From positions 1 to 63,858 of the forward strand of contig CAMAUX010000030.1 in the NCBI GenBank assembly GCA_945861435.1: a DNA stretch of 63,858 nucleotides, read 5' to 3'. This document shows, piece by piece, positions 5,876-33,105 of the stretch. A program made the position numbers and the translations under genes. The notes under the pieces are model-generated. The model saw nothing but the letters and a program-made list of their open reading frames with translations. It did not search any database and was not told the origin of the DNA. Numbering within the stretch: the first letter of the stretch is position 1; each line of letters begins with the position of its first letter. Source of the DNA: Chthoniobacter flavus (GTDB lineage: Bacteria > Verrucomicrobiota > Verrucomicrobiia > Chthoniobacterales > Chthoniobacteraceae).

Positions 5876-6805
5876 TCAGACCAGGGCGTGGACGTGGGCG
5901 GTGGCGGCGCTCGCGAGGCCGGAAAGGTTGTAGCCCCCTTCAAGTACACTGACAACGCGGCCACCGGCCGTTTCGTCGGCGAGTTTGCGGACGAGAAGGG
6001 TGAGATCGGCGAAATCTTTGTCCGTGAGTTGGAAGCGGCCGAGAGGGTCGCCCTCCCGGGAATCGAATCCGGCGCTGATGAGGACGAGTTCCGGGCGGAA
6101 GTGTTTCATTGCGGGGAGGAGTTTGTTTTCGAATGCGTCGAAGATCTCGGCGCGGCCGCTGCCTGCGGGGAGGGGGCAGTTGCAGGTGGTGCCTTTGCCG
6201 GGGCCGGCGCCGGTTTCCTGGGCGAGACCGGTGCCCGGGTACCATGGGTGCTGATGGGTGCTGAAGAAGAAGACGGTGCCGTCGTTGTAGAAGATGTCCT
6301 GGGTGCCGTTGCCGTGGTGGACGTCCCAGTCGAGGATGAGGACGCGGCCGATGCCGAGGCGGCGTTGGGCGTGGCGTGCGGCGATGGCGATGTTGTTGAG
6401 GAGACAGAAGCCCATGCCGACGGAGGCGCTGGCGTGGTGGCCTGGTGGGCGAACGAGGCAGAAGGCGGTCTTGGCGTCGCCCTTGATGACGGCTTCTGTG
6501 GCGGCAATGGCGCATCCGGCGGCGGCTTTGGCGGCTGACCAAGAGGCTTTGCAGATCTGGGTGTCGCCGGTGCTGAGGTGATCGTAACCGGCTTCGACTT
6601 CATGCTGGGCGAGTGCGAGGTAGACGGGGGTATGGACGAGGGCGAGGTCTTCTGTGGTGACTGCGCGTGCCGGAATGCGCTTGGCGGTGGCGAGGGTGCC
6701 GCTGCGTTCGAGTGCGTGAAGGACGCTTTGGTAACGGGCAACTTGTTCGGGATGGCCGGGACCCGGGTCGTGCGTGCTGCAGAGTGCGTCTGTGACGAAG
6801 AGCAT
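5876..6805 (-). CDS. Histone deacetylase / acetoin utilisation (AcuC-like) family protein
   Basis: A 309-residue zinc-dependent deacetylase-fold enzyme. The metal and catalytic motifs are all present: HDPGPGHPEQ near the start, LVRPPGHHA with the catalytic His pair, DWDVHHGNGTQDIFY with Asp/His metal ligands, and SAGFDSREGDP with the second Asp ligand. The ATG at 6805 was chosen because the family signature LFVTDALCSTHDPG begins right after it; a longer frame to 7048 adds 81 residues overlapping gpmI in the opposite direction. The substrate in bacteria is uncertain (acetylated lysines, acetylpolyamines or other amides). It is divergent from gpmI, with 129 bp between starts. Confidence 0.93.
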   Translation of the reverse strand: MLFVTDALCSTHDPGPGHPEQVARYQSVLHALERSGTLATAKRIPARAVTTEDLALVHTPVYLALAQHEVEAGYDHLSTGDTQICKASWSAAKAAAGCAIAATEAVIKGDAKTAFCLVRPPGHHASASVGMGFCLLNNIAIAARHAQRRLGIGRVLILDWDVHHGNGTQDIFYNDGTVFFFSTHQHPWYPGTGLAQETGAGPGKGTTCNCPLPAGSGRAEIFDAFENKLLPAMKHFRPELVLISAGFDSREGDPLGRFQLTDKDFADLTLLVRKLADETAGGRVVSVLEGGYNLSGLASAATAHVHALV

Positions 6806-23285: not shown

Positions 23286-24287
23286 ATGCCAAACTTCATC
23301 CTCGGGTTCCTCGGTCTGGTGGTGTTCGTCTTCGCGATCATCCTCTTTAACTTCTTCGGTCTGTGGCTGCGCGCGCGGATCTCGGGGGCGCCGTTGAGTC
23401 TTGGCCGATTGATTGCGATGCGGCTGCGCGGTGTGCCCCTGGCGCAGATCGTGGATGCGCGCATCACGGCGGTGAAGGCGGGGCTGCCTGTGGAGACCGA
23501 TCCGCTGGAGGCCCATTACCTTGCGGGTGGCAATGTGAACGAGGTGATCCTTGCGCTCATTGCAGCGGAGAAGTCCGGGATCGCGCTCACCTTTGACCAG
23601 GCGACCGGCATCGATCTGGCCACGAAGGGGACGGGCAAGACCGTGCTCGATGCCGTGAAGACGAGCATCAACCCGAGGGTCATCGACTGTCCCAATCCTG
23701 CCAGTGGCAAGCAGACGATCGACGGCGTGGCCAAGGACGGCATCGGCGTGAAAGCCAAGGCGCGCGTGACCGTGCGCACGAACCTCACGCAGTTCGTGGG
23801 CGGCGCCACGGAGGAGACGGTGGTGGCGCGGGTGGGCGAGGGGATCGTGAGCGCGATCGGCTCGGCGGACAGTTACAAGCTGGTGCTGGAAAATCCCGAC
23901 CGCATTTCCAAGGCGGTGCTGGCCAAGGGGCTCGATAGCGGGACGGCGTTCGAGATCCTGTCCATCGACATTGCGGATGTGGACATCGGCGAGAACATTG
24001 GTGCCAAACTTCAGGCCGAGCAGGCCGACGCCGACAAGCGTGTGGCCCAGGCGAAGGCGGAGGTGCGGCGCGCAGCCGCGGTGGCCGTGGAGCAGGAGAT
24101 GCGCGCGCGTACCCAGGAGATGCGCGCAAAGGTGGTGGAGGCCGAGGCCCAGATTCCGCAGGCCATGGCCGAGGCGTTCCGTTCCGGCAACCTTGGGATC
24201 ATGGATTACACGCGGCTCAAGAATATCCAGGCCGACACCGGGATGCGGGAGTCCATTGCCGGGACCGAGCCGAGGACCGAGGAGTAG
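23286..24287 (+). CDS. floA: Flotillin-like protein FloA
   Basis: A 333-residue membrane-microdomain scaffold of the UPF0365/YqfA family. It has an N-terminal membrane hairpin (residues 4-28, [20 protein letters not shown]), a PHB/SPFH-like domain with [20 protein letters not shown] and [19 protein letters not shown], and an Ala/Glu/Gln-rich coiled coil (about residues 240-300, [20 protein letters not shown]) ending in [18 protein letters not shown]. The length and ending match FloA. It is followed after 3 bp by a small membrane protein gene, so the two form an operon ending at the tRNA gene. Confidence 0.96.
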
Positions 24288-24915: not shown

Positions 24916-24999
24916 GCCGGCGTGGCGGAACTGGCAGACGCGCTAGACTCAAAATCTGGTATCCGCAAGGGTGTGTGGGTTCGAGCCCCTCCGCCGGCA
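24916..24999 (+). tRNA. tRNA-Leu (anticodon CAA)
   Basis: An 84-nt leucine tRNA. The acceptor strand GCCGGCG pairs fully with CGCCGGC at 24992-24998. The anticodon stem CTAGA/TCTGG, with loop CTCAAAA, gives anticodon CAA. A long variable arm is present, and the T loop is TTCGAGC. CCA is not encoded. It marks the left border of the accessory island with phage remnants, and tRNA genes are common integration sites. Confidence 0.95.
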
Positions 25000-25011
25000 C
25001 TTCTTAAAAAA

Positions 25012-25041
25012 CCGCAAACCCTCTTTGGATGAGGGTTGCGG
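25012..25041 (+). terminator. Hairpin directly after tRNA-Leu
   Basis: CCGCAAACCCTC (25012-25023) pairs with GAGGGTTGCGG (25031-25041) with one bulged A around a 7-base loop. It sits 12 bases after the tRNA. The A-rich tract before it (TTAAAAAA) would serve termination from the opposite strand better than from the tRNA, so its role is uncertain. Its right arm is also the first segment of the dispersed repeat that follows. Confidence 0.45.
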
Positions 25042-25171
25042 GGCGGTTCGGGGGGCGGGTGGGAGGTGGCGGAAAGGGTGCTGTCTCGCGGGTCCGACTT
25101 GGTGCCCTGGTGCCTTTGTGTGTGCTGTCAGGTGCAGGTTCTCACACCAAGGCACTAAGCTCACCAAGCTG
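25028..25171 (+). repeat. Dispersed hairpin repeat, copy 1 (left edge of island)
   Basis: About 144 bp starting GATGAGGGTTGCGGGGCGG and ending CTCACCAAGCTG. Copies 2 and 3 are at 32536-32677 and 32964-33105. The 3' part holds an inverted repeat: GGTGCCTTTGTGTG pairs imperfectly with CACACCAAGGCAC after a loop of about 15 bases. This copy is more diverged than the other two, which are nearly the same as each other. It truncates the phage gene that follows. Confidence 0.85.
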
Positions 25172-25962: not shown

Positions 25963-26172
25963 TTACTTCACCATCCGCTTCTGACTACCCGAGTGCGTGC
26001 AGATTACCGTCCACCCATCAGCTCGAGTTACATGGATTTCATCCCCCATCAAGACGGCGCTCACAGCCCGCTGCGTTCCGGTTCCGGTTCCCCATGAGTA
26101 AAGGCCCGATCCGGCTGAGTTGTAGACTTTGACTTGTCCATTTTCGACTTTGACGATTGCTGCTTGTGACAT
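25963..26172 (-). CDS. Small beta-rich protein of unknown function (69 residues)
   Basis: The ATG at 26172 begins MSQAAIVKVENGQVKVYNSA. The sequence alternates in short beta strands with a Gly/Ser/Thr-rich turn (GSGLYSWGTGTGTQ) and ends basic (SGSQKRMVK). The pattern resembles small WD-like or beta-sandwich single-repeat proteins, but I do not recognise a family. It is the last gene of a minus-strand cassette, 10 bp after the 57-residue gene. By eye the base composition is less GC-rich than the flanking chromosome, which fits acquisition by transfer. Confidence 0.6.
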   Translation of the reverse strand: MSQAAIVKVENGQVKVYNSAGSGLYSWGTGTGTQRAVSAVLMGDEIHVTRADGWTVICTHSGSQKRMVK

Positions 26173-26182
26173 GGTGGTTGGT

Positions 26183-26356
26183 TTATTTCTTGGAGGCGGT
26201 TTTGTTCTCATCCACACGTTGCCTCTCAGCGTGCGACGAGGGTTTGTTCCAAATTATGAACCCGTCGGACATCTCCACACTTTCGATGCGTCGTTGCTGC
26301 TGGAACCACTCAGTCGTGTACTTCTTAGCCCCGAACAATGAATTAAATAATCCCAT
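26183..26356 (-). CDS. Small charged protein of unknown function (57 residues)
   Basis: The ATG at 26356 opens a 57-codon frame: MGLFNSLFGAKKYTTEWFQQ, then QRRIESVEMSDGFIIWNKPS and a charged tail. The start MGLFxSLFG with an amphipathic helix resembles N-termini of small secretion-system or phage proteins, but there is no family I can assign. It lies between the 421-residue gene (66 bp away) and the 69-residue gene (10 bp), so all are probably one transcript. Coding character is supported by the clean frame, its position and the lack of stops, not by homology. Confidence 0.55.
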   Translation of the reverse strand: MGLFNSLFGAKKYTTEWFQQQRRIESVEMSDGFIIWNKPSSHAERQRVDENKTASKK

Positions 26357-26422
26357 ATTGAAAGTTCCCGAATGATGTTTGGTTCACGCTGGAAAGCTCT
26401 TTGCTATTGGAGTTTCTCTTCC

Positions 26423-27688
26423 TCAATACCCATCCATGAACAAGACCTGCTCGACCTGACGCAGGCTCCAACTCCGTCGACCACGCCGCTTCGGCGAGAG
26501 TTGGTTCATTTGGCTTCGGATCGCGCGGACAAAGGTGCTGCCAGCGAACTGGGCCGCCCAAGAGCCGTATCCGTTGGGCCAGCGAAGAAAGAGACGGCGC
26601 GGACGTGTCCCTGCATCGCGGCCGTTTACGTAGCCCAGCCCCTTGAGCTCCTGCGGCACGGATTTCAGCCCTTTGGCATGGCAGATCTGGTCGAGACGAC
26701 TTAGCACGGAGGTCGCCACCCGGCTGTCCCAGATCACTTCCGGCGCGGCGGAGCCCGCAGTGGCCATCGCCACCACCTTCGTCCAACCGCTGCTCATTGG
26801 AGCCCGCTGGCATCGTACCTTCTTCGCCGCACTTTCAAGCACCGAGCGCACGGTCGCCGCAGCCGGCTCTCGATAGCCCACGCCACCCCACTTAAAAACC
26901 GCCACAGACAGACTCACCGCCTCCTCACACTGTGCTTGCGTCCATGTCCGATCGGCCTGAACTGCGGCAAAGAGCGGGCGGAAGCGCCTCTCAAAATCCG
27001 CAGTCTTTACTGCGTTGGCCGAAGGGCCCACAGACGGATTGGGCCAGAAATATCCCGCCAGGCGGGCATGCCAACCTCGGTGGGGCGCGTCGACAGTTTC
27101 CCGGCGGTAGCGTGGAAGGTAAGGGTCTCCTTCAATCGCCTCGATCACTGCCTTGGCCCACCCGGCCAGCGCGCCTGGGGGAGGCGCACTCACGACCGAA
27201 GGCCCCTCCTTTACGAGCCCGCCTTCTGATCCGAGCAGTACGGTCTCGATCCCTTTATTGCCCGCCACCTCCCAGTCCGACTCAATGACTGCCTCCATTG
27301 CGCTGATGAGCTGCGCGCGGTGCTCCACGGGTTGGCGGTCCCAATAGGCCACCGCCTCTGGTCGCAGAACGGCACCTTCAACCAATCTCTTTTTTCCAAC
27401 GCAGGAAGCGCGTTGGAGCCAGCTCTCGTTGGCGCGCATAAACGGGTTTGTCGCCTGCATCGTATTGCGGTAGCGGACAGGCAGGAGCATCCGGCAGAGG
27501 ACGTCGACCCCGCCCTCTCTGCCCTTCGCCAGCTGATCGCGCAGCTTGATGGCCTGCATCCCTCGAGGGAGCGCCGCCGTGCGCCAGTCCGCAGGGGGAT
27601 GAAAGCGGTGGATCCAGACGATCCACGCGGCAACAAATTGTTCCAGGGGGACACTGGCGTTGGCTGCGTGAGGGAATACGAGATTCAT
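26423..27688 (-). CDS. Unrecognised 421-residue protein, possibly with a glycosylase-like HhH fold
   Basis: The ATG at 27688 (a GTG at 27703 is in frame) starts MNLVFPHAANASVPLEQFVA. The protein is helical with many Trp and Arg. About residues 300-345 read SGWTKVVAMATAGSAA then EVIWDSRVATSVLSRL. The pattern Lys...hydrophobic...(Y/W)DSRVA followed by a helix resembles the core of OGG-like helix-hairpin-helix proteins that occur in some bacterial defence operons. That comparison is inference from a single motif. There is no signal peptide or transmembrane helix. It heads the minus-strand cassette together with the Cys/His protein at 27760-27966. Function is unknown. Confidence 0.6.
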   Translation of the reverse strand: MNLVFPHAANASVPLEQFVAAWIVWIHRFHPPADWRTAALPRGMQAIKLRDQLAKGREGGVDVLCRMLLPVRYRNTMQATNPFMRANESWLQRASCVGKKRLVEGAVLRPEAVAYWDRQPVEHRAQLISAMEAVIESDWEVAGNKGIETVLLGSEGGLVKEGPSVVSAPPPGALAGWAKAVIEAIEGDPYLPRYRRETVDAPHRGWHARLAGYFWPNPSVGPSANAVKTADFERRFRPLFAAVQADRTWTQAQCEEAVSLSVAVFKWGGVGYREPAAATVRSVLESAAKKVRCQRAPMSSGWTKVVAMATAGSAAPEVIWDSRVATSVLSRLDQICHAKGLKSVPQELKGLGYVNGRDAGTRPRRLFLRWPNGYGSWAAQFAGSTFVRAIRSQMNQLSPKRRGRRSWSLRQVEQVLFMDGY

Positions 27689-27759
27689 GGGGGGGGATGA
27701 CACATGGTTTCGTGTTTCGATTGCGGGATCTGAACCGGGATGGCGTCAAGCCGTGCGGC

Positions 27760-27966
27760 TCACCGTCCGGTCGCGGGAGCGCCCCGCATGTGAATTTTGC
27801 TGACCGGATTGACGTGACAGCCCTGCCCATGGTCGGTTGATCCACAGTACCCGCATCTTGACGGATCTTCGGGATGGAAATGCACTCCATGAGGACCGTA
27901 CCTGCACCCCTTGCCGCGGTCCCTTGATCCACAATACATGCAGCGTGTCTGCTGGTTTATGGCCAT
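27760..27966 (-). CDS. Tandem Cys/His-knuckle protein (68 residues)
   Basis: The ATG at 27966 opens MAINQQTRCMYCGSRDRGKG. Two copies of one motif follow: CMYCGSRDRGKGCRYGPHG with VHFHP, and CGYCGSTDHGQGCHVNP with IHMR. Each has the form C-x2-C-G-S-x4-G-x-G-C-x4/3-P-...-H-x-H/M, well suited to bind one zinc ion. Such CxYCGSxxxGxGCxxxP motifs recur at the ends of larger bacterial proteins; here two stand alone. It lies about 70 bp upstream of the 421-residue gene on the same strand and may be its partner, for example a nucleic-acid or protein-binding module. Confidence 0.65.
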   Translation of the reverse strand: MAINQQTRCMYCGSRDRGKGCRYGPHGVHFHPEDPSRCGYCGSTDHGQGCHVNPVSKIHMRGAPATGR

Positions 27967-28353
27967 AGAGGTCGCATATATTATATGCAGAGTTTTGGGC
28001 AACTCTATTTAATGAAAGTCTGAAGTCTCGGTGGGCGCTTTGCTTGAAGGGTGCAGGGAAATGCGTGCTTGGCTGTTCCGGTTTTGCTTAACCCAGTTTC
28101 CGGTTAGCTATTGAGGACTGCAAGTCCGAGTGACCACTGGCAAGGGCTGCGCTTCCAACTCCGGCGTGGCATCCGACTCCGCAGTCCCCAATAGGACTCG
28201 GTGAGATGCCCACAGTGGGGTTTGGGCAAAAAGAGGCAGCGGCGGCCTCTCATGCAGCGGGTGATGCACAATTGACGCTTCCTGTGAACGTGTTGTAGGT
28301 TTGCAATGCTTCTCCGTCTTAACCAAGGAGGGAAGACGCAACCACCCCGCTGT
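27967..28353. other. Non-coding stretch between divergent genes
   Basis: No credible gene is seen on either strand. The sequence next to the Cys/His gene is AT-rich for this genome (TATATTATATG at 27977-27987, then CTATTTAATGAAAG) and is the likely promoter region for the minus-strand cassette. CCAAGGAGGGAAG at 28323-28335 lies 18 bases before the SAM-FGE start and contains a ribosome-binding-like GGAGG, although the spacing is long. Confidence 0.45.
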
Positions 28354-29409
28354 ATGGACACAAAGCTAAGATCAATTTTGGCAAGGGAACAACTCCAACA
28401 CCTGCTTGCCGTGTTTACGGATCAAAGCATCACGGACTCGATCTTGGGGGAATTGACGGAGGCCGATCTGAAGGAGTTGGGGGTTGATAAACTCGGGGAC
28501 CGGAAGAGGCTGCATGTGGCGTTCAGGGCTGTTGAAAGCGATGAATTACCTCCCGTTTCCGAGTCCAAGCCAGCAGCCAAGCCAGCACCCAAGCCAGCAC
28601 CCAAGCCAGCACCCAAGCCAGCACCCAAGCCAGCACCCAAGCCAGCACCCAAGCCAGCACCCAAGCCAGCACCCAAGCCAGCGGCCAAGCCAGCGGCCAA
28701 GGCGGCCGTGCCCGCCAATTTTTGCAGGGTGGAGGGAGGCAAGCTGCCTGCTTCTTCCGAGCTTGGAGCCGTAGCCGTGAGCACTTTTTATATTGGGAAG
28801 TATCCCGTGAGATGGAGTGAATTTGTGGAGGTGCGGAACTGGGCCGCCGCCCACGGGTACTATAGTGGGCAAGCGGGTTCTGGGGGGAGGGATAACTATC
28901 CGGTGACGAATGTGAACTGGTTTCAGGCGTTGAAGTGGTGCAATGCGCGCAGCGAGATGGAGAGCAAAACGCCGGTGTACAAGAATGCCAAAGGGGATGT
29001 GTATCGGACTGGAGAAGAGGTTCCTGTGGTGAATGCGTCCGCGAACGGGTACCGGTTGCCGAGCGAGAAAGAGTGGGAGTGGGCAGCGCGAGGTGGTACG
29101 CAGACGCATGGGTACGCTTACAGCGGAAGCGAGGACATCAACGAGGTGGCGTGGTACGACGGTAACGCCAATCGTCAAATACATGTGGTGGGCGCGAAGG
29201 CGGCGAATGAGTTGGGGATCCACGATATGAGCGGGAATGCGTGGGAGTGGTGCTTTGACGATAACAGTCCGGGCACGAACCGGGTGATCCGTGGCGGGAG
29301 CTGGTCCTACCCCGCGTGGATCTGCGCGGTGGGGTACCGGGACAACTACTTCCCGAACCTCAGCAACAACGACTTCGGGTTCCGGCTGGCTCTGAGTTCA
29401 GTTCCCTGA
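28354..29409 (+). CDS. SAM domain - (PAPK)n linker - FGE/C-type-lectin-like protein
   Basis: A 351-residue protein. Residues 1-60 are a SAM-like helical domain (LGELTEADLKELGVDKLGDR). Residues about 70-118 are a Lys/Pro/Ala repeat linker. The rest is a formylglycine-generating-enzyme (SUMF1) fold: FYIGKYPVRWSEFVEVRNW, GYRLPSEKEWEWAARGG, GIHDMSGNAWEWCFDD and RVIRGGSW...GFRLALSSVP. The paired catalytic cysteines of true FGE are absent (only one Cys in the last segment), so sulfatase activation is unlikely and ligand binding is more plausible. The last 25 codons are rich in NNC codons, as in targets of diversity-generating retroelements. It sits between phage remnants. Confidence 0.85.
   Translation: MDTKLRSILAREQLQHLLAVFTDQSITDSILGELTEADLKELGVDKLGDRKRLHVAFRAVESDELPPVSESKPAAKPAPKPAPKPAPKPAPKPAPKPAPKPAPKPAPKPAAKPAAKAAVPANFCRVEGGKLPASSELGAVAVSTFYIGKYPVRWSEFVEVRNWAAAHGYYSGQAGSGGRDNYPVTNVNWFQALKWCNARSEMESKTPVYKNAKGDVYRTGEEVPVVNASANGYRLPSEKEWEWAARGGTQTHGYAYSGSEDINEVAWYDGNANRQIHVVGAKAANELGIHDMSGNAWEWCFDDNSPGTNRVIRGGSWSYPAWICAVGYRDNYFPNLSNNDFGFRLALSSVP
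28566..28705 (+). repeat. 12-bp minisatellite inside the SAM-FGE gene
   Basis: The unit AAGCCAGCACCC (Lys-Pro-Ala-Pro) is repeated about nine times without change, flanked by AAGCCAGC(A/G)GCC variants. Near-perfect identity at the DNA level, including third positions, points to recent expansion by slippage. The linker length is therefore likely to vary between strains. It stays in frame because the unit is 12 bp. Confidence 0.9.
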
Positions 29410-29780: not shown

Positions 29781-30224
29781 ATGGATAACACACCAACGGG
29801 CGCACTCGGGGAGCCCGCCGCAGTCACCCCCGTGGCAAAAGCAATCGGCCTCCTGGACCACGCCAAACTGGCCGCGGTTCTCAAGAAGACTTTTGATGAA
29901 AAAACGCCGGACCCACCGGCGCCGGAGCAGTGTCCGCAGGATCTTTCCCAGTCGCCAGAACCGACAAACGCAGACGCAAGCGGAGACGCCGCGCCCGCAC
30001 ACGCACAGGCATCCGAGCCCACATCCGAGCCGGCGGGGCAGGATGAGCCCGGAGAGCAGGACGACGCAGCGACCACGGACGATGCGCACGGGCCCGCCGA
30101 ACCACAGAGCTTTCAGAAGCGGGTCAATAAACTCGTCGCCGCCAAAAAAGCGGCGGAGGAAGGCCTGCCGCGGAACGGCGGCAGCGATTCTGTACAAGCG
30201 CGGGGCCTTTGTGGACTGGGCTGA
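29781..30224 (+). CDS. Phage scaffold-like protein, N-terminal portion, probably truncated
   Basis: The ATG at 29781 starts MDNTPTGALGEPAAVTPVAK, followed by IGLLDHAKLAAVLKKTFDEK, a long acidic Pro/Ala/Asp/Glu-rich disordered middle and a basic helix (QSFQKRVNKLVAAKKAAEEG). In head modules of podovirus-like phages such acidic proteins with a C-terminal QKRxNKLxAxKK coiled coil lie between portal and capsid genes, and here the order is the same. The last 20 residues (RNGGSDSVQARGLCGLG) lose the heptad pattern and run to within 23 bp of the phd-like gene, so the 3' part is probably deleted. The function is inferred from position and composition. Confidence 0.5.
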   Translation: MDNTPTGALGEPAAVTPVAKAIGLLDHAKLAAVLKKTFDEKTPDPPAPEQCPQDLSQSPEPTNADASGDAAPAHAQASEPTSEPAGQDEPGEQDDAATTDDAHGPAEPQSFQKRVNKLVAAKKAAEEGLPRNGGSDSVQARGLCGLG

Positions 30225-30247
30225 TTGGTCGTGGCAATGTTTGCCCC

Positions 30248-30475
30248 ATGAAAGAGATCGCTGTATCCGAGGCCAAATCGCGATTTTCCCAACTGCTGAG
30301 AGAGGCCGCCGCGGGTGAGGTTTTTGTGATCACGCGCAATGGGCAGAGGATGGCTGAGCTTCGCGCCTGCTCATCGCAAAAGCCTGTCCGGCGACGGGGC
30401 ATGATGAAATCGGAGTTTGCGCCCATCCCGGCGGATTTTAACGAAGCATTGGATGTTTTTGCTGAGTATCGGTGA
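30248..30475 (+). CDS. Phd/YefM-family antitoxin
   Basis: A 75-residue antitoxin. The N-terminal MKEIAVSEAKSRFSQLLREA and VFVITRNGQRMAEL are the Phd/YefM DNA-binding fold, and the C-terminal tail (GMMKSEFAPIPADFNEALDV) would wrap the toxin. The ATG at 30248 is preceded by a short leader after the phage fragment. Its stop overlaps the GTG of the PIN toxin remnant, the usual toxin-antitoxin arrangement. The antitoxin looks intact although its toxin is broken. Confidence 0.87.
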   Translation: MKEIAVSEAKSRFSQLLREAAAGEVFVITRNGQRMAELRACSSQKPVRRRGMMKSEFAPIPADFNEALDVFAEYR

Positions 30476-30864
30476 GAGTTCTCCTCGCCACCTGCGCGCT
30501 CATCTGGTTTTTGCGGGCCGATGGGGAGTGATCCGAACGGGCGGCTGAACTCATTGAAAACAGTGAGACGGACGCATTTGTCAGTGTGGTGAGCATCTGG
30601 GAGATCGCGATCAAGGCATCGATCGGCAAACTTCGAGCGCCGGCGGGATTTGAGGATTCCTTGGAGGAGAAATTAATCGCCTCGGGATTCCAGATCCTGC
30701 CGATGGAGTTCCGGCATGCGTCTGGGGTTTATGGGTTGCCCCCCGTCCATAGCGATCCGTTTGACAGACTGCTGATATCGCAGTGTAAGGCGGAGAAGTT
30801 GACTGCGATTACCAACGACGCGCACTGGGGAGATCCCGGGTACGGCATATCCGTGTTTTGGTAA
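30472..30864 (+). pseudogene. PIN-domain (VapC-like) toxin, inactivated
   Basis: From GTG 30472 the frame reads VRVLLATCALIWFLRADGE, then a TGA at 30529-30531, then continues in the same frame to 30864 (SERAAELIENSETDAFVSVV ... SIWEIAIKASIGKL ... DPFDRLLISQCKAEKLTAIT ... HWGDPGYGISVFW). This is a complete PIN ribonuclease apart from two defects: the in-frame stop at codon 20, and Ala in place of the first catalytic Asp (LLATCALIW where the family has LLDTxALIW). Later acidic residues (WE, DPFDR) remain. Restart at a downstream GTG (30586) would give a fragment without the N-terminal strand. Confidence 0.85.
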
Positions 30865-31306: not shown

Positions 31307-31819
31307 GCACCCGACTCGGCCAAGGCCATCATCGGCCTCAAGCGCGACATGGAGGCCACCTTCTCCTCCAACCAAACCGCGCAGGCCGACGACGGCACCA
31401 ACCCGTACCGCACCGGCGGCATGCTGCGCTGGGTCGCAGCCTCCGACTCCAACAACAGCGCCGACGTCAACCTCACCTCCGGCAGCACGGTCTCCATCCC
31501 CGCACAGTTCACCAGCCGCTCCGGTGCCATCCTCACAGGCGCCAACGCCTCGGGCATGACGGACACCAACGTCCAAACCCTCCTGCAGGCCATCTACAAC
31601 GCCGCCGGCCAGTACAAAACCTTCGACGCCATCGTGGGGCCCGACGTGAAGCGCGCCTTCACCAGCCTCCTGAGCACCAGCTCCCTCTCCACGATCTCCA
31701 ACGCCACCAACACCCTTGCCCGTGGATGCATCTCAATGCATCTCAAAGTGCATCAGCGTTTCTTGCCCCCGCCCCTTCACGCTCACCGCCCGCCTCAGCT
31801 GACCACTTCCACACGCTGA
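31307..31819 (+). pseudogene. Internal fragment of a phage major capsid protein (DUF5309/SU10-like)
   Basis: The frame enters after an in-frame TAG at 31304 and encodes DSAKAIIGLKRDMEATFSSN, then QTAQADDGTNPYRTGGMLRW, then TDTNVQTLLQAIYNAAGQYK and FDAIVGPDVKRAFTSLL. KRDMEa..xNQ...A followed by a glycine-rich GGML.W segment and an xxVGPxxKRAF motif is the pattern of SU10-type podovirus capsid proteins. Homology-like sequence stops near 31725; the remaining codons to 31819 are rearranged sequence. Both the N- and C-terminal parts are missing. It lies in the expected position after portal and scaffold fragments. Confidence 0.6.
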
Positions 31820-32192: not shown

Positions 32193-32540
32193 ATGCCACT
32201 TCCCGCAGACCAAATCCGAGCCTGTCTCAGCTCTGTTGGAGCATTGATCGAGAAGCGGCGTCCGAAGCCCGAGGTTCGACATTTGGTTGATCTGAAGGCC
32301 GAGATTACAGGGCAGGAGGTGATCTTATCGGAAGTAAGGCCGAGTTATACTGATCCTGCGCTGAAGCTCGATCATCCGGTTGCAAAGGTCAGATGGATCG
32401 GAGCCCAGAATCGGTGGAGGGTGTACTGGAGGCGTGCCGATCTGAAATGGCACGTTTATGCGCCGGGCGCGCACCTCTCGGATATCGAGTCAATCATGGG
32501 GGAGATTGATCGGGACCCAGTTTGTTGCTTTTGGGGATGA
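32193..32540 (+). CDS. DUF3024 family protein
   Basis: A 115-residue small cytoplasmic protein. The ATG at 32193 begins MPLPADQIRACLSSVGALIE and is followed by VRHLVDLKAEITGQEVILSE, VAKVRWIGAQNRWRVYWRRA and DLKWHVYAPGAHLSDIESIM, ending EIDRDPVCCFWG. This matches DUF3024 throughout, including the terminal FWG. The biochemical role of the family is unknown. The gene is complete, and repeat copy 2 begins within its last codons (32536), at the right edge of the accessory island. Confidence 0.85.
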   Translation: MPLPADQIRACLSSVGALIEKRRPKPEVRHLVDLKAEITGQEVILSEVRPSYTDPALKLDHPVAKVRWIGAQNRWRVYWRRADLKWHVYAPGAHLSDIESIMGEIDRDPVCCFWG

Positions 32541-32677
32541 GGGTTGCGGGGCGGTTCGGGGGCGGGCGGGAGGTGGCGGAGAGGGTGCTGTCTCGCGGGT
32601 CTGCCTTGGTGCCATGGTGCCTTTGTGTGAGCTTCAGGTGCGGGTTCTCACACCAAGGCACCAAGCTCACCAAGCTG
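32536..32677 (+). repeat. Dispersed hairpin repeat, copy 2 (right edge of island)
   Basis: This copy has the same start (GATGAGGGTTGCGGGGCGG) and end (CTCACCAAGCTG) as copies 1 and 3. Near the 3' end, GGTGCCTTTGTGTGAG and CTCACACCAAGGCACC form a 16-bp stem with a single mismatch around a 15-base loop. It overlaps the stop region of the DUF3024 gene. Confidence 0.85.
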
Positions 32678-32932: not shown

Positions 32933-32963
32933 GAATGGGGTCAGCGGTCTTCCGGCGAGGGGG

Positions 32964-33105
32964 GATGAGGGTTGCGGGGCGGTTCGGGGGCGGGCGGGAG
33001 GTGGCGGAGAGGGTGCTGTCTCGCGGGTCTGCCATGGTGCCATGATGCCTTTGTGTGAGGTTCAGGTGCGGGTTCTCACACCAAGGCACCAAGCTCACCA
33101 AGCTG
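32964..33105 (+). repeat. Dispersed hairpin repeat, copy 3
   Basis: This is the third copy, almost the same as copy 2 and part of the 397-bp duplication. It ends 10 bp before the stop of the glycosidase-like gene on the opposite strand, so the stem-loop may also serve as its transcription end. Confidence 0.85.

Follow-up and report, generated by a model that had tools for sequence, protein, structure and literature searches.

The 421-residue protein encoded on the minus strand at 26423..27688 of the window (the whole 63,858-nucleotide stretch of Chthoniobacter flavus DNA that was analysed) belongs to an undescribed protein family. We tentatively read it, with a confidence that falls slightly short of even, as a mobile, putative N-glycosylase in which a winged-helix-like N terminus precedes a C-terminal domain from the superfamily of helix-hairpin-helix glycosylases (OGG1, MutY, DUF2419, Pfam OGG). 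Its gene is best explained as cargo, acquired horizontally, of a decayed prophage adjoining a tRNA-Leu gene. The three small open reading frames beside it are neighbours with an unproven connection to it, the likeliest partner being a zinc-knuckle gene.

Results

Four open reading frames lie on the minus strand between positions 25963 and 28002, as the sequence-only reading had described. The uppermost (27760..28002) encodes a Cys/His protein of only 68 residues from ATG 27966 or 80 residues from TTG 28002, in which the knuckle repeat CxYCGSxxxGxGC occurs twice. After a gap of 71 bases follows the gene of the 421-residue protein, starting with ATG 27688 (a GTG at 27703 would yield 426 residues), then after 66 bases an ORF of 57 residues (26183..26356) and after 10 bases one of 69 residues (25963..26172). 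The 57-residue ORF has no relatives of weight and no independent support as a gene, and its coding status is uncertain; the 69-residue ORF weakly matches phrog_23252, a PHROG family of unknown function (E 3.6e-4). The earlier description of the genes as unrecognised was borne out for the 421-, 57- and 69-residue proteins, for which searches of Pfam and NCBIfam up to E 1 gave no family and the 2023 PADLOC set gave no defence model (best E 0.041). For the Cys/His protein, only a zinc-finger-like match below the cut-off was obtained from Pfam, NCBIfam and PADLOC.

The impression of a composition poorer in GC was also correct. The 1-kb blocks at 26-28 kb have GC contents of 0.574 and 0.614, against 0.595 to 0.682 in the blocks outside the island (before 25 kb and after 38 kb), and the GC3 of the four ORFs amounts to 0.57, 0.64, 0.70 and 0.61, against 0.86 for the ORF at 23286-24287. 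The low GC is not confined to the four ORFs and extends to other blocks of the island, for example 0.568 at 28-29 kb.

At the left edge of the island, a tRNA-Leu (caa) gene on the plus strand (24916..25000) is a possible integration site. It is followed by the left copy of a direct repeat (25027..25171, plus strand), other copies of which lie at about 32533-32677 and 32961-33105. The copies at 25027-25171 and about 32533-32677 may bracket an insert of 7.5 kb, but this is no more than suggested, because both copies on the right are part of a pair of 300-nt repeats. The stretch enclosed by the direct repeats contains an SU10-type major capsid protein fragment on the plus strand (31349..31819; Pfam 1.1e-10, PHROG 1.9e-12), which substantiates the phage pieces reported earlier as a prophage remnant, as well as a Phd-like ORF, a PIN-like ORF and a SAM-FGE protein. 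The Phd/YefM-like antitoxin ORF adjoins the PIN-domain ORF (30209-30864). The protein with a SAM and an FGE-sulfatase domain (28306-29409) is encoded divergently beside the zinc-knuckle gene, and the Lys-Pro-Ala rich linker that joins its two domains is encoded by a twelve-base tandem repeat (28565-28718); in genome G077 (L072, 3757-6055) a SAM-FGE gene is one ORF away from a zinc-knuckle relative. A search of the window for WYL, Sir2, AAA and DUF2779 partners yielded none at E 0.01; one HDAC-like match was obtained at 6017-6439, far from the island.

The sequence-only reading had taken the four ORFs as one cassette and had proposed a survey of gene neighbourhoods. The four genes were found together in no other genome searched, an outcome which that reading had itself named as a refutation and which here applies to the cassette. 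The 421-residue protein matched one of 97 related genomes and one of 387 genomes sampled from the phylum, in both cases its own genome, and a 22-row profile gave the same result for the latter sample. The Cys/His protein matched in 13 of the 97 genomes at E up to 0.01, its own included, seven of the others being below 1e-4; a clear relative was present in nine of the eleven loci examined. None of the other genomes with zinc-knuckle relatives among the 97 contained the 421-residue protein. Matches to the 69- and 57-residue proteins occurred in three and two of the 97 genomes, own genome included, with E-values of 0.003-0.01 in the others; those to the 69-residue protein were rejected as homologues, since by eye they look like chance. 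BLAST of the three small proteins against 22 loci that surround relatives of the 421-residue protein revealed no relative below E 0.27. Zinc-knuckle relatives were also seen near genes which by eye resemble TerC, TerD and TerY (L073) and near HDAC, VWA and NADAR genes (L074). In L075/L087 (genome G006 contig C39) the zinc-knuckle relative is near a NADAR gene, and a Pfam OGG gene is located about 8.3 kb away from it.

The proteins of the 421-residue family comprise about 420-460 residues and bear no Pfam name; two of 22 family rows showed one chance-level Pfam match each. No description of the family was found in the open-access literature, searched by titles and abstract starts for OGG-like proteins in conflict or defence and for the Pfam OGG names. 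A scan of genome contigs identified two relatives, in Rheinheimera and Alishewanella. A three-row profile then matched 43 of 394 genomes of the order of Rheinheimera, this genome included. For the neighbourhood analysis, 20 of the 43 were fetched, Rheinheimera was represented by L002, and L051 and 21 others were left out, as was a second, weaker match in genome G512 (E 3e-7); L032 was left out of alignment A3. The 22-row profile matched three of 398 genomes in a phylum sample, two of them already known, and a five-row profile of the members that keep two candidate catalytic residues (see below) matched five of 25 genomes around G1154, itself included. In BLAST, 19 of the 20 loci aligned with almost the entire window protein, at 27-35% identity, and the twentieth, L025, with its C-terminal part only. 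Full-length identities were 34% for L026, 35% for L027 and 38% for L049. With E up to 0.01 as the limit, neither 50,697 phage records nor 72,556 plasmids contained a relative, and viral contigs, scanned three times, contained none either; plasmid, phage and viral-contig searches with one relative and two alignments as queries likewise returned nothing.

A motif noticed earlier in the large protein, a lysine followed by IWDSRVATSV, is present and comprises the candidate catalytic lysine K304 (codon at 26777..26779, minus strand) and the candidate catalytic aspartate D321 (26726..26728, minus strand, in the IWDSRV motif). Four rows of the 22-row alignment keep both residues, namely the window protein, L002, L003 and L025; in the 18 other rows they are replaced. 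They are kept in L049 and L101-L104 as well, which brings the K/D members to nine including the window, although their presence in L101-L104 is partly built in, these having been found with a profile made from K/D members. All 18 aligned K/D-less members fall on one side of a branch with a support of 93/93, to which a long-branch warning applies. The window copy lies outside the K/D-less branch.

The predicted structure of the whole protein (pLDDT 82.6, pTM 0.59) consists of an N-terminal part of about residues 1-141, a low-confidence linker (141-171) and an OGG/glycosylase-like domain (172-421). Structural matches of residues 1-141 had Z-scores of 3.3-5.3 and included, among others, a DarTG chain, MukBEF/MukEF chains and MarR- or PadR-type regulators; from these matches we read the region as winged-helix-like. 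The C-terminal domain modelled alone (pLDDT 93.3, pTM 0.91) is nearly all helical. Among the 50 VIA-align matches listed for it, 13 start no later than residue 8 and extend to residue 250, and all 13 are glycosylases: six DUF2419 matches (Z 4.0-4.9, 86-147 residues aligned), four of MutY (Z 2.6-3.7, 79-120 residues) and three of OGG1 (Z 3.3-3.7, 125-128 residues), all Z-scores of the domain being below 5, in a range which, according to the program's own note, may mean little. The remaining matches cover part of the domain and include unrelated folds with similar scores, an IP3 receptor reaching Z 4.8. Foldseek gave nothing useful for the whole protein against the PDB or for the domain against the PDB and a viral set, with a best E of 1.6 for the domain, and a profile search of PDB sequences gave chance matches only. 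The comparison with DNA glycosylase folds suggested by the sequence-only reading leaves the helix-hairpin-helix glycosylase fold as a candidate for the domain. In the model of the domain, a short helix at residues 129-138 contains K304, and D321 immediately precedes the helix that follows (151-167); the same order of lysine and aspartate relative to the helices is found in OGG1.

Profile comparison provided a second link to glycosylases. The Pfam OGG reference alignment contained eight PF21790 members, six confirmed by Pfam and two found by that model; a Pfam OGG protein had eight plasmid matches, and seven of these were retrieved, with L090 excluded from A5. Aligned by hhalign with these eight, five K/D members gave a score of 32.1 (P 8e-4) over 145 columns, with the WGG, TK, D and C-terminal motifs in equal order, lysine placed on lysine and aspartate on aspartate. 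None of 200 column shuffles scored as well (mean 13.8, best 24.3), and reversed profiles reached 11.0 and 12.5. With nine K/D members the score rose to 38.3 (P 1e-4; none of 200 shuffles as good, best 19.4) over 81 columns, in an alignment that slips at the aspartate. The HHsearch probability for K/D members was 24-57%. The 18 K/D-less members alone scored 15.7, which is no match, and all 23 members together, the K/D-less included, gave no match of weight. The controls were confined to column shuffles, reversed profiles and the K/D-less members. The pair TK...IxD is thus present in the motif order of Pfam OGG, with the aspartate region slipping in the nine-member run, whereas the G-x-G hairpin that precedes the lysine in Pfam OGG members has not been retained. 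Neither the window protein nor any relative scanned reached the curated cut-off of Pfam OGG, and this model had no match in the window's own genome. The earlier hint of an OGG-like core therefore gains from the profile alignment of the motif with the K...D of Pfam OGG and from the glycosylases among the structural matches (Z below 5); the two families are likely to be distantly homologous, as far as sequence profiles can tell. In the same genus, a Pfam OGG protein (L085, 1435-2625) matches the candidate defence model PDC-S11 with its C-terminal part (E 4.4e-4).

Twelve of the 19 K/D-less loci share a neighbour of about 1148 residues, which we take to be mfd, and three share another neighbourhood. 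In total, 15 of the 19 fetched loci thus have one of two chromosomal neighbourhoods in common and do not lie in islands. Ten neighbour proteins used as queries had no match at E 1e-4 in these 19 loci (L026-L044).

WYL and deacylase genes occurred together at five of the eight K/D loci outside the window, two of the five being nearly identical. In L002 and L003, genes for an HDAC, a WYL protein, a small protein and an AAA protein are on the same strand as the OGG-like gene; L002 also contains a DUF2779 gene and L003 a CARF-RtcR type regulator. In L102, WYL and Sir2 genes share the strand of the OGG-like gene and a small protein is encoded on the other, while in L049 and L101 the WYL and Sir2 genes (two Sir2 in L049, which also has the small protein) are on the opposite strand. 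One further locus, L025, has WYL and AAA neighbours, and L103 and L104 have neither combination; the OGG-like gene of L104 is located beside genes for a LeoBC-like protein and a patatin. Where small proteins were compared, those of L002, L049 and L102 proved mutually alike (0, 2 and 0 of 500 shuffles as good); they have 68-99 residues and share the pattern G..iG.Y.P..d.T....g..ig.GN.L.aLv. The small ORFs of the window were rejected as counterparts, the best pair being reached by 48 of 500 shuffles, and the window copy is without the WYL, Sir2, HDAC and AAA neighbours seen at the relatives. The OGG-like relatives that were scanned with PADLOC (P0005, L049, L102) matched none of its models, and the set used contained none for the HDAC, small and DUF2779 proteins of L002 and L003; other neighbours matched its models WYL, IetA and RtcR. 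The combination of WYL, deacylase and glycosylase found no match in a search of the open-access literature.

Discussion

In the mechanism we propose, the winged-helix-like N-terminal region would bind DNA, and K304 and D321 would form the active site in the manner of K249 and D268, the pair given for human OGG1 (PMC13160076). The enzyme would break the N-glycosidic bond between the sugar and a particular, probably modified, base or nucleotide. Its purpose would be defence against, or competition among, mobile elements; an anti-phage role is something we only infer.

A narrower alternative within the same fold, to which we give a rather low probability, is that the protein acts on nucleotides or nucleosides instead of DNA, as a salvage or signal-destroying N-glycosidase of the DUF2419 kind. 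The best structural matches are indeed to DUF2419 queuosine-5'-phosphate glycosidase (spanning residues 2..250), and some relatives adjoin proteins of the Sir2 family, which uses NAD. The MutY and OGG1 matches, however, are only about one Z unit lower and close to a tie, the N terminus resembles winged-helix DNA binders, and the profile match is to Pfam OGG, the family that the profile comparison covered. The same winged-helix-like N terminus would suit a regulator that binds DNA and whose glycosylase-like domain has degenerated and lost its activity, which is likely the state of the K/D-less members. Lysine and aspartate are missing from all 18 of these that were aligned, and yet the branch is kept in shared chromosomal neighbourhoods; the scaffold therefore seems to be of use without catalysis. 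For the window copy, which retains both residues and branches elsewhere, we consider this reading equally improbable.

Somewhat more plausible, though still unlikely, is that the four genes are unrelated leftovers of a decayed prophage and that the large one is an accessory gene on which selection does not currently act, a view compatible with the enzymatic readings. The nearby capsid fragment, the weak phage match of the 69-residue ORF and the restriction of the four-gene set to this one genome among those searched agree with it. Against it stand the intact frame of the large gene with the family's conserved columns kept, and the searches of phage records, plasmids and viral contigs, which returned no relative.

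Returning to the mobile N-glycosylase, some relatives, lying beside regulators and deacylases, may represent an unrecognised bacterial conflict system. It is conceivable, if doubtful, that Proteobacteria possess an undescribed conflict system whose effector is a K/D member, the OGG-like putative glycosylase, in combination with a WYL regulator, a small protein and a Sir2 or HDAC deacylase, that the window carries a stripped, mobile version of the glycosylase, and that the K/D-less gammaproteobacterial branch is its domesticated, catalytically dead descendant. If true, one more family, as yet unnamed, would employ base excision in bacterial conflicts, and it would come with its own comparison, the mobile branch being apparently active and the branch fixed in chromosomes apparently inactive. 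The pair K304/D321 makes the glycosylase idea directly testable.

Among known glycosylases, the family shares with Pfam OGG (PF21790, putative 8-oxoguanine DNA glycosylase OGG-like protein) the order WGG, TK, IxD and a C-terminal W..rqvE..LF..G, but it is without the GMGP-type hairpin before the lysine and carries an extra winged-helix-like N terminus. The DUF2419 queuosine salvage glycosidase, described as similar to DNA glycosylases (PMC9406330), provided the best-ranked domain-spanning structural matches, and in its solved structures Lys and Asp are mutated according to the structure titles; identity is only 12-16%, however, and the profile search of the PDB gave no sequence match. OGG1 and MutY (HhH-GPD) align over up to 128 residues, with K304 near a helix start and D321 just before the next helix, yet their Z-scores are weak, there is no sequence match, and no hairpin sequence is recognisable in the 421-residue family. 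With the anti-phage DNA glycosylases Brig1 and Brig3 the family would have in common the strategy of removing phage bases, if our reading holds. Brig3 is described as having a mixed alpha/beta fold like AAG, with which a model of Brig1 aligns (PMC13160076), whereas the domain modelled here is nearly all helical. Brig1 and Brig3 being of another fold, the 421-residue family would represent a separate invention of this strategy.
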